Assembly (NCBI RefSeq): GCF_002494345.1
Contig: NZ_NXNI01000003.1
Location: forward strand, 1-64,000
Source: Natrinema ejinorense
GTDB taxonomy: Archaea; Halobacteriota; Halobacteria; Halobacteriales; Natrialbaceae
DNA length: 64,000 nt
Direction: 5' to 3'
Positions 5,666 through 61,997 of this stretch are shown in pieces. Position 1 is the stretch's first letter; each line of letters begins with the position of its first letter. Under the pieces are notes generated by a model, which saw only the letters and a list, made by a program, of their open reading frames with translations, was not told the origin of the DNA and did not search any database. The position numbers were made by a program, and so were the translations under genes.

Positions 5666-6552
5666 GGCGATGTACCTCCAGTGAACGCCTCGAGTCCGGA
5701 CTGGCGACCGCCGTCCTGATTGCGTCGTTCGCGGTCATCCTTCCATTTGAGCATTTCCTCTGTGAACGCGTGCTCGTCGTAATACCGATCTACCGCGTCG
5801 TCGACGTCGTCGACACCAAGCCCGGAGAGGATCTCTCGGGACTCCCATCCACGCAACGCCTCGAGCCACAGGTGATGGCCCCGCGAGTGGGGCTGTTTCT
5901 CGACGCCGACCATTACGGTCTCGACTTTCTCGGCGAACGTCTCTGGCGGGAGGTAGAAGATCGGTTCAATGAAGTGGTCGCGAAGCTCTTTCCGGAAGGG
6001 TTCGAACGCCGGCACGAGCAGCGCCGGGAGCGGAAGGATGAACAGCAGCGTCCCGCCCGGCTTCAACAATCGCATCGACTGCTCGAAAAACGGGACGAAC
6101 ATGTCGAATTGTCCCTGTGCGATCCGGAACCGCTCACGGTACTGGTCGCGTTTCGCCGCGTCGATGTCCTGGTAGCAGACGAACGGCGGATTCGCGAGTA
6201 CCCAATCGAACTCCCCTTCGGGTGGATCGAGCAGAAAGTCGGCATGGTGGACATCGATCTCCGCGTCCGGATGGCCGGCTTCGAACTCGTCGACCAGCTC
6301 GGAGTTAGTCTCGACGGCGACGCACTCCGGCAGCGGATAGTCGAACTTCCGGGCCGTCGACCATCCGTCGCCGTTCGTACAGTAGCGATGAACGGCATCG
6401 TAGAGATTGCCCGTCCCGAGTCCCGGCAGCAGGAGTCGCCCGCGGCGATCGTCGTCGCCGACATGGCCGGGACGCTCAGCACCGAAGGCCGTCGACGCCG
6501 CGAGGTTGGCGACCGGTTCCGGCGTCGGGACGTAGCCGTTTGCGTCGCTCAT
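5662..6552 (-). CDS. N6-adenine DNA methyltransferase (NPPF type)
   Basis: 296 aa from the ATG at 6552, which overlaps the preceding stop (a GTG 9 bp upstream is the alternative). A degenerate SAM-binding motif I (LLLPGLGTGNL) is followed by the catalytic NPPF in WVLANPPFVCYQD and a LKPGGTLLFILP strand. This is the layout of Eco57I/type I-like adenine methyltransferases without a nuclease. Likely role: self-methylation of the element or epigenetic control. Confidence 0.82.
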   Translation of the reverse strand: MSDANGYVPTPEPVANLAASTAFGAERPGHVGDDDRRGRLLLPGLGTGNLYDAVHRYCTNGDGWSTARKFDYPLPECVAVETNSELVDEFEAGHPDAEIDVHHADFLLDPPEGEFDWVLANPPFVCYQDIDAAKRDQYRERFRIAQGQFDMFVPFFEQSMRLLKPGGTLLFILPLPALLVPAFEPFRKELRDHFIEPIFYLPPETFAEKVETVMVGVEKQPHSRGHHLWLEALRGWESREILSGLGVDDVDDAVDRYYDEHAFTEEMLKWKDDRERRNQDGGRQSGLEAFTGGTSP

Positions 6553-60363: not shown

Positions 60364-60368
60364 TTTTT
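60364..60368 (+). terminator. T5 run before tRNA-like element 1
   Basis: TTTTT lies directly before the structured element and 38 bp after the membrane-protein stop. Could end or attenuate transcription. Confidence 0.3.
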
Positions 60369-60408
60369 GCTCGCGCTGGCACACGACGGTTCGATTCCGT
60401 CGGCGAGC
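60369..60408 (+). ncRNA. tRNA-like acceptor/T-arm element 1
   Basis: GCTCGC (60369-60374) pairs with GCGAGC (60403-60408). Between them, linker GCTGGCACA is followed by CGACGG-TTCGATT-CCGTCG. The two helices are contiguous on the 3' side, giving 12 stacked base pairs, the same number as tRNA acceptor plus T stem. The loop equals the tRNA T-loop consensus. No D or anticodon arm. The next ATG is 5 bp downstream. Confidence 0.6.
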
Positions 60409-60412
60409 CTCT

Positions 60413-60790
60413 ATGGCAACCAACTCACGACTTGAGTCACAACTCTCAGACATCGGCGTTGCACGCTCCGGGCCGGCGGGCTACCCGATGGTGACGCGCC
60501 GGCTCGAGGCAATCGTCGGCACGCGATCGGAGCCGTTCGAAGTCCTGCGGGATGCACTCGACCTCGAGTCACGACTCCGCGTCAACCCACCCGGAGAGTG
60601 GCGCGCCGAAAAGCGAACGGTGACCGAACGCTCGTGGACGGGCTACGGGTCGGTGGTTCGACTGACCAAACAGGGCCGCTTCGGCTCGTGGACAGTCTCG
60701 CTTGACGGCGACGTGATCCTCTCGGATGTCGACCGACGCGAGGCTTTCGAGACGGCCGCCGAACGGATGCGAGCGATCGCCCACTGGTAA
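60413..60790 (+). CDS. Hypothetical soluble protein in the surface module
   Basis: 125 aa, basic, alpha/beta (SWTGYGSVVRLTKQGRFGSW). No recognised family. It is bracketed by tRNA-like elements 1 and 2. Confidence 0.64.
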   Translation: MATNSRLESQLSDIGVARSGPAGYPMVTRRLEAIVGTRSEPFEVLRDALDLESRLRVNPPGEWRAEKRTVTERSWTGYGSVVRLTKQGRFGSWTVSLDGDVILSDVDRREAFETAAERMRAIAHW

Positions 60791-60830
60791 CCCGCGCTGG
60801 TGTTTGTCGGGGTTCGATTCCTCGAGCGGG
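60791..60830 (+). ncRNA. tRNA-like acceptor/T-arm element 2
   Basis: Immediately after the stop codon: CCCGC (60791-60795), linker GCTGGTGTTTG, then TCGGGG-TTCGATT-CCTCGA (one G-U pair) and GCGGG (60826-60830). Same layout as element 1 with different paired bases. The next ATG is 4 bp downstream. Confidence 0.6.
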
Positions 60831-60834
60831 CGTT

Positions 60835-61161
60835 ATGGACATGGATGCCTACGACGATGGGGAGTTCGTCGACCTCGAAACAGCCACCGACGATCAGGCC
60901 GGCGACTTCGATGAGTCGGCACTGTTCGATTTCAACGTGATGTGGGTGCTCAACACTGCGGTTGGTCTTCTCGGTGGGGTGTTGTTCATGATGGGGTGGT
61001 ACGGCGTGCTGGCCGCTCGCTACGTCCCTCGGGTGGTTATCGGCGCTGTTGCTACTGGCCTGGTTGTCCTCGGTTCGATCGGGCTGTACTGGATACTTCG
61101 GGACGACTACCCGGATGTGTTCTCACAACTGCGACAGATTCCCAGCCGCATAGACGATTGA
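60835..61161 (+). CDS. Two-helix membrane protein
   Basis: 108 aa with an acidic N-terminus and two hydrophobic helices (VLNTAVGLLGGVLFMMGWY and VVIGAVATGLVVLGSIGLYW). No recognised family. Confidence 0.66.
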   Translation: MDMDAYDDGEFVDLETATDDQAGDFDESALFDFNVMWVLNTAVGLLGGVLFMMGWYGVLAARYVPRVVIGAVATGLVVLGSIGLYWILRDDYPDVFSQLRQIPSRIDD

Positions 61162-61199
61162 CCCACGGTGGCGAACTACGGTTCGATTCCGTAGGTGGG
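61162..61199 (+). ncRNA. tRNA-like acceptor/T-arm element 3
   Basis: Directly after the TGA stop: CCCAC (61162-61166), linker GGTGGCGAA, CTACGG-TTCGATT-CCGTAG, then GTGGG (61195-61199). Both helices have compensatory changes relative to elements 1 and 2. Confidence 0.6.
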
Positions 61200-61201
61200 C
61201 C

Positions 61202-61263
61202 TGCCCGGCACTGACCGGGCACCTGAGAGTAGCAGCTCCGGGGCGCTTTCCTCGCCTCGGAGC
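61202..61263 (+). promoter_or_regulatory. Two further leader hairpins
   Basis: TGCCCGG-CACTGA-CCGGGCA (61202-61221) and an 11-bp stem from 61235 to 61263 (GCTCCGGGGCG with CGCCTCGGAGC, one G-U pair). With element 3 they fill the 143-bp spacer before the Tat gene. Confidence 0.5.
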
Positions 61264-61304
61264 CTCCAGACCTCCCCGACACAACCCCTTTCAGTACGAT
61301 ACTC

Positions 61305-61997
61305 ATGACACACTCAGACCCACAGACGAGACGCCGATTCCTTCGGGCGTCGGGGGCGACCCTGGCGGCCGCCGGGTCGGCCGGTCTCGCAACGACAACG
61401 GCAAGCGCACAGACCAACTCACAGGGCATACTCGCCGACGGCGTCGGAGAAGGCGGCGACTTCATGGCGTTCATTCGTGGTCGGATCGACGGCTACGGGC
61501 TTGCTGGCGCACCCGAGACGGCCGCAACACTCGCCGATCGCCTTCGAAACGAGTTCAACGCCAATAGCGAACACTGGATCAACTACGGAAACTGGTTGAT
61601 CGATGAGGGTGGCGTCACAGCACTCGGCGATACCGTCGTCGGCGTCGATGTCGCGATCGACTGGACGCGCTGGCCGACACGCTCGGAATCGGTCGCGACG
61701 ACAATCGACGCCGGCTACGATACCGACACTGACGAGTTTACGTCACTCGAGTGGCGACTCGAGGAAGCCACTGACCCCGATTACCAGGCGACGATCAAAA
61801 ACGAGGCCGCCGAAAACGGGGCCGACGAGCTGGCAGAGTTTCGCCGTGAGTTCATCGACACTGACGGGAACGGTAACCACGAGATCCCCTCGAGCGAGTA
61901 CGTGAGCCACCATGTCGGGAAGTACTCGAGTGCGATCGAACTCGGCAAGGAGGGCCGCAGCGTCTTGGAACTCCTCCTCGGGAGGGTCGAGCTATGA
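61305..61997 (+). CDS. Tat-exported hypothetical protein
   Basis: 230 aa. Tat signal RRRFLRASGATLAAAGSAGL with ASA cleavage. The mature part is alpha-rich, acidic and without known domain; it ends LELLLGRVEL. ATGA-coupled to the next membrane gene. Confidence 0.7.
   Translation: MTHSDPQTRRRFLRASGATLAAAGSAGLATTTASAQTNSQGILADGVGEGGDFMAFIRGRIDGYGLAGAPETAATLADRLRNEFNANSEHWINYGNWLIDEGGVTALGDTVVGVDVAIDWTRWPTRSESVATTIDAGYDTDTDEFTSLEWRLEEATDPDYQATIKNEAAENGADELAEFRREFIDTDGNGNHEIPSSEYVSHHVGKYSSAIELGKEGRSVLELLLGRVEL

Follow-up and report, generated by a model that had tools for sequence, protein, structure and literature searches.

What do three small tRNA-like structures do between the genes of a haloarchaeal plasmid? 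The window analysed here, a stretch of 64,000 nucleotides from Natrinema ejinorense, carries them on its + strand between small genes close to its end (contig C3, 72,059 bp). They were first described from the letters of the DNA, and both inspection and a strict descriptor confirmed all three at the places given in that sequence-only reading (E1–E3, Table 1). Each consists of acceptor positions 1–7 and 66–72 and a complete T arm with a TTCGATT loop, and a linker of 9–11 nt replaces the D and anticodon arms. The stems, described at first as an outer helix of 5–6 bp on an inner helix of 6 bp, are real but divide differently in tRNA numbering, with a T stem of 5 bp and an acceptor of seven positions that includes mismatches. 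These mismatches lie at 7-66 in all three elements and at 1-72 (A.C) in E2 and E3, so that E1 has six contiguous acceptor pairs and E2 and E3 only five, a point against a processing role, though the 5S rRNA elements described below do not differ in this; the T stem of E2 contains one G-U pair.

Table 1. Elements and neighbouring genes, with positions in the window. Elements are written in tRNA numbering as acceptor 5' strand / linker / T stem.loop.T stem / acceptor 3' strand.
Feature	Position	Strand	Score	Description
Surface glycoprotein-like ORF, 476 aa	58617..60047	+		DUF2808; sub-threshold halo_sig_pep; upstream, same gene run
Gene b, 90 aa	60053..60325	+		no Pfam match; upstream of E1
E1 mini-tRNA element	60369..60408	+	CM 52.2 bits	GCTCGCG/ctggcacac/GACGG.TTCGATT.CCGTC/GGCGAGC; N73 = C60409
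E1 acceptor 5' strand	60369-60375	+
E1 linker	60376-60384	+
E1 T arm	60385-60401	+
E1 acceptor 3' strand	60402-60408	+
Gene c, 125 aa	60413..60790	+		no Pfam or NCBIfam match; downstream of E1
E2 mini-tRNA element	60790..60831	+	CM 38.1 bits	ACCCGCG/ctggtgtttgt/CGGGG.TTCGATT.CCTCG/AGCGGGC; found by the strict descriptor; N73 = G60832
Gene d, 108 aa	60835..61161	+		no Pfam match; between E2 and E3
E3 mini-tRNA element	61161..61200	+	CM 49.3 bits	ACCCACG/gtggcgaac/TACGG.TTCGATT.CCGTA/GGTGGGC; N73 = C61201
Structured leader of gene e	61202..61304	+		as read from the sequence
Gene e, 230 aa	61305..61997	+		Tat-type signal (MTHSDPQTRRRFLRASG); downstream of E3

E2 and E3 begin at a stop codon, exactly as first described, position 1 being the last base of the gene c TAA (60790) and of the gene d TGA (61161). 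E1 and E2 had been said to end 4–5 bp before a start codon; the computed gap is indeed 4 nt for E1 (ATG 60413) but 3 nt for E2 (ATG 60835). E3 is not near a start, and the next gene begins at 61305. Homologues of gene c were found on six named plasmids and those of gene e on 11 named Natrialbaceae plasmids, and the product of gene d is an apparent membrane protein, judging from its hydrophobic stretches. The leader of gene e holds a TGCCCGG/CCGGGCA hairpin, a hairpin around CTTTCCT and the motif TTTCAGTACGA before the ATG. These leader features recur in L001, L002, L004, L011, L012 and L017, some of these loci lacking one or more of the three; the motif, TTTCAGTACRA-like in this set, stands a few nt 5' of the gene e ATG.

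The strict descriptor (loop TTCGATT, five T-stem pairs, acceptor pairs 2–6, linker 8–12) finds exactly E1–E3 on both strands of the 64 kb, as compared to 0.008 matches per 64 kb in order-1 Markov (dinucleotide-random) sequence. With any TTCRANN loop the chance expectation is 0.09 (64 kb, both strands), and a reversed-sequence control of 571 kb gave one weak match. Folding energies are not decisive: the MFE z-scores of E1, E2 and E3 are −1.75, −0.25 and −1.67, E2 is not singled out, and for E3 the MFE calculation yields a competing structure. It is the comparative evidence that decides. No Rfam family matched the window and four loci at gathering score, and ARAGORN called no tRNA in the window and 13 loci, in agreement with the lack of a cloverleaf with an anticodon arm in E1–E3. 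Close-relative scans with the gene c protein of GTDB contigs and IMG/VR gave no confirmed match, and a phage collection gave none for DNA or protein.

Searches by DNA similarity, by tblastn (queries: genes c and e) and through whole genomes turned up related operons, all of them in Natrialbaceae. An element precedes gene c or its positional counterpart in 14/14 operons where the region could be examined (the window, L001, L002, L003, L011, L012, L013, L014, L015, L016, L017, L018, L020 and L028), two of which are represented by weak model matches, L012 with a bulged T stem (24.2 bits, supported also by inspection) and L028 (22.8 bits). The L014 element has one T-stem mismatch. A scanner loosened to a 4-bp T stem and a looser loop was swamped by background and was applied to syntenic cases only. 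A second set of elements 5' of gene e, in L002, L004, L011, L012, L014 and L028, comprises the counterparts of E3. The sequence-only reading had staked its case on homologous operons, and there the copies are present and their stems keep pairing. In two loci the element disagrees with the annotation: in L001 it points to an ATG at 5869, 63 nt upstream of the annotated start at 5932, and in L013 it ends at an in-frame GTG (5087) away from the annotated ATG. The annotated starts of these two gene c homologues are probably wrong. Linkers in the plasmid operons range from 9 to 41 nt, frequently with an additional hairpin. At the upper end, L016 (6153-6224) and L017 (6055-6126) have 41-nt linkers and form 72-nt near-cloverleaves that are not called as tRNAs and are perhaps near the ancestral form. 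A T-run lies immediately 5' of the gene c element in the window (60364-60368) and in L003, L015, L016 and L017.

The first description took the RNA fold to be the conserved feature, and covariation bears this out. In an alignment of 18 elements whose linkers were cut back to 9 nt, standard pairs fill 92.6% of pair cells, compared to 63.6% after shuffling and at most 49.1% after sliding, and 11/12 pairs show changes on both sides. This alignment is by itself partly circular, since many of its elements were chosen by a scanner that demands pairing; the positional conservation, the blind model search and the 5S and DUF5658 tests are free of that circularity. Among 77 model matches, 89.4% of pair cells are paired (68.4% shuffled), with a covariation score of 0.559 (0.144 shuffled), and position 1-72 is unpaired in 32. 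A GG near the linker start, for which a D-loop role had been proposed, is present in 76/77 model-aligned elements including those of 5S and DUF5658, a figure inflated by the training of the model on such sequences. This near-invariance speaks for the proposal and fits a G18G19-like docking on the T loop.

A covariance-model search, the check put forward with the first description, did find further copies. A scan of IMG/VR for two exact consensus strings found none; such strings overlook divergent copies, and these scans give no evidence of viral occurrence. The model (R1) was trained on plasmid elements only and run on six whole genomes, where it recovered the flanks of 5S rRNA genes, with no 5S elements in its training, and a new chromosomal family. 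In 391 Halobacteria genomes there were matches at E ≤ 0.003 in 150 genomes and 54/86 genera, with about one chance match expected by E-value. The elements are thus widespread on Halobacterial chromosomes and are no peculiarity of plasmids or viruses, which the sequence-only reading had missed. By inspection, the four non-Halobacterial matches from a phylum sample are full tRNA genes. Sixty of the matches in the Halobacteria genomes were fetched: 14 are at 5S rRNA, 11 end ≤10 nt before an ORF start, 24 at 11–45 nt and four at 46–70 nt, and seven are placed otherwise. Random positions under the same loose rule fall into the three start classes at 7.3%, 22.2% and 12.6% (0.8%, 3.2% and 2.0% if an ATG is strictly required). 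Enrichment is clear for the ≤10 nt class (11/46 non-5S matches); in the 11–45 nt class a recurring protein family weighs more than the count. L183, L189, L207 and L231 represent further gene families with an element 4–9 nt 5' of the ATG (e.g. MTRWAIVGCGSQKLDLSGDKGPVAISRLY in L183), which suggests that the target set is wider.

The 5S rRNA genes provide the link to a known activity. In the window's own genome an element lies directly 5' of all four (4/4), with the form ACCGATA/ttggaatgac/GACGG.TTCGATT.CCGTT/GATCGGC/A followed by mature 5S, or a close variant. These elements have the T-arm core GGTTCGATTCC of E1–E3, a 10-nt GG linker and, like E2 and E3, an A1.C72 mismatch, and mature 5S apparently starts after position 73. 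E1–E3 combine an acceptor helix and a T arm with the tRNA T-loop consensus in the architecture of the 5S-flanking element of their host, which makes them likely 't-elements'. The genome encodes RNase Z (340 bits). In Haloferax, tRNase Z cleaves a tRNA-like element 5' of 5S and so forms the 5' end of the 5S rRNA (PMC3296008, PMC4326828; both cite Hoelzle 2008, RNA 14:928, and 2012, Biochimie 94:940); the element also functions in designed constructs (PMC4946936), and in engineered strains tRNA-like elements release crRNAs (PMC4326828, PMC4946936). Among the roles first suggested, an RNase Z site is the best reading of E1–E3, because their architecture recurs in this genome 5' of 5S rRNA, a position at which tRNase Z is known to act on it in Haloferax.

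At the DUF5658 genes, as at E1 and E2, the spacing to the start codon would suit a product that starts just past position 73. In 29/30 homologues, picked by protein similarity alone and with many from one genus and so not independent, the element ends exactly 2 nt before the ATG, and the thirtieth retains the T arm; the control rate is 147/20,000 random positions. The spacing is fixed while the linker varies from 6 to 36 nt, an arrangement that cleavage at position 73 would favour, as it leaves U-AUG. Most of these elements (L237–L266) have a near-invariant CATAACAATA about 31 nt upstream, usually after CTACGCCTG or similar, which is possibly a promoter feature. The DUF5658 element seems to lie in a single-gene leader with no polycistron to split, and this counts against the processing reading.

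A search of an 84,980-species genome collection for the exact 24-nt consensus gave 65 stretches, 64 of them haloarchaeal by title; the sole exception, a Spirochaetes MAG, resembles a complete tRNA in which the linker is 41 nt long. Downstream genes encode products with SipW-type signals or with weak TafA/TafE/TafC and DUF1102 matches, the Taf matches being sub-threshold, and several of these secreted-protein operons have 2–4 elements 5' of successive genes. In the SipW/Taf-type operons the ATG is mostly 20–27 nt after the element. Of 85 predicted 5' ends, 70 open with a hairpin of 4 bp or more (21.7 expected), which is typically CCCC/GGGG. The 5' acceptor strand in this set was sought at linkers of 3–48 nt, and some acceptor assignments by the scanner are poor. 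In L112–L176, the first 26 nt past the element hold the CCCC/GGGG-type hairpin at the 5' terminus of the predicted leader, and its G-rich 3' strand could be SD-like.

With a probability of about 75%, E1–E3 serve as tRNase Z (RNase Z) processing sites within mRNAs, that is, haloarchaeal 't-elements', whose cleavage we infer, and the cell probably reuses its tRNA-processing machinery to shape mRNAs. By stacking an acceptor-like helix on a T arm whose loop reads TTCRANN, the element would mimic the coaxial tRNA half recognised by tRNase Z, and the linker GG could dock on the T loop as a D-loop stand-in. The enzyme would bind acceptor and T arm and cut 3' of position 73 (the discriminator). The predicted cuts at 60409/60410 (E1) and 60832/60833 (E2) would leave leaders of TCT (3 nt) and TT (2 nt) before the ATG, and hence near-leaderless mRNAs, which are well translated in haloarchaea. 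The upstream message would keep its whole stop codon and end in a stable mini-tRNA. At E3 a predicted cut at 61201/61202 would free the long structured leader of gene e, 103 nt before its ATG. Cleavage in vivo, near-leaderless products and any effect on expression or translation are predictions made from the sequence. Making leaderless mRNA is not a general rule, because no start codon lies directly beside E3 or the secreted-protein elements. We lean slightly towards a Halobacteria-wide code, in which gene-border mini-tRNAs cut by tRNase Z would mature the mRNAs of SipW/Taf-type secreted or fimbrial, DUF5658 and plasmid surface gene sets, giving leaderless or hairpin-led messages, protected upstream 3' ends and separate dosage from one transcript.

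The tight AUG spacing in E1, E2 and DUF5658, the occurrence in single-gene leaders and the second hairpin, with a G-rich 3' strand, before the ATG of secreted-protein genes would also suit a cis-regulatory leader, in which the mini-tRNA binds a tRNA-interacting protein (a non-cutting tRNase Z, a synthetase or a tRNA-modifying enzyme) or blocks or admits the ribosome at the AUG, and so controls the translation of surface genes. We consider this unlikely given that the start following E3 is 103 nt away and that the same element stands 5' of the untranslated 5S rRNA, where its known role is processing (PMC3296008). Excision of the elements as small RNAs by RNase P, acting by itself or together with tRNase Z, which would set the upstream mRNA 3' end as in plant mitochondrial t-elements, is improbable. 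The geometry does include a tRNA-like 5' end and both enzymes cut Haloferax t-element constructs (PMC4326828), but position 1-72 is often unpaired, and at E2 and E3 the RNase P processing first suggested would fall inside the stop codon, a cut 5' of position 1 removing the last stop base of genes c and d and leaving non-stop messages. We consider it very improbable that the element, the preceding T-run and the following hairpin form a terminator/promoter boundary: the T-runs that immediately precede E1 and several of its homologues, the hairpins after secreted-protein elements and the conserved motif upstream of DUF5658 elements point that way, but linkers of 6–41 nt would shift any promoter spacing, and a terminator was rejected as leaving the exact tRNA T loop, the GG linker and the 5S copies unexplained. 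DNA-level relics, either attachment sites or tRNA gene fragments left by integrases, were suggested by the plasmid on which the elements were first seen and by archaeal attachment sites being commonly tRNA 3' halves, and are dismissed: the stems are independent, covary and are not tRNA gene copies, the elements hold a fixed place before the same genes across species and are repeated within operons, and ARAGORN finds no tRNA.

The initial statement that no such family had been described was too strong, as the literature already describes tRNA-like 't-elements' at the 5S rRNA of haloarchaea. Like the Haloferax volcanii 5S t-element, the present elements have a tRNA-like fold with an RNA product that would begin right after a tRNase Z cut; here, in contrast, the product would be an mRNA, one operon can hold several elements, the linker can be as long as 41 nt and cleavage is predicted. 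Hoelzle 2012 reportedly lists further tRNA-like elements in H. volcanii, which may overlap with ours. The mascRNA/menRNA family (RF01684) shares a reduced tRNA-like fold processed by RNase P and RNase Z; it belongs to animal nuclear lncRNAs, and L011 (22.3 bits) and E2 (15.9 bits) score below its gathering score of 42.5 bits. Canonical tRNA genes share the T arm and acceptor 3' strand, and the model also matches true tRNAs outside Halobacteria, but the short forms lack an anticodon or D arm and abut stop and start codons. Plant mitochondrial t-elements, for which we know of no near-leaderless geometry, are likewise tRNA mimics beside protein genes that set mRNA ends through tRNA-processing enzymes. 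They differ in belonging to another domain of life and in that RNase P (PRORP) is the enzyme reported for tRNA-like structures there (PMC10941002). The kind of element is thus already known from 5S, plant mitochondria and mascRNA, and its broad deployment upstream of protein genes in haloarchaea seems not to have been described. In the open-access literature searched we found no account of systematic placement before Halobacterial protein genes or of a geometry that would give near-leaderless mRNAs; some of these elements may be among those in Hoelzle 2012.

Archaeal leaderless mRNAs are normally explained by transcription start at the AUG. The elements suggest a second, post-transcriptional route to them, by a tRNA-processing enzyme and inside operons. 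If this is true, tRNase Z gains a defined set of mRNA targets, and the element a use as a portable processing tag, as tRNA-like elements are already exploited in Haloferax CRISPR tools (PMC4326828, PMC4946936). Polycistronic surface and fimbrial operons could then yield messages that behave differently from one another.
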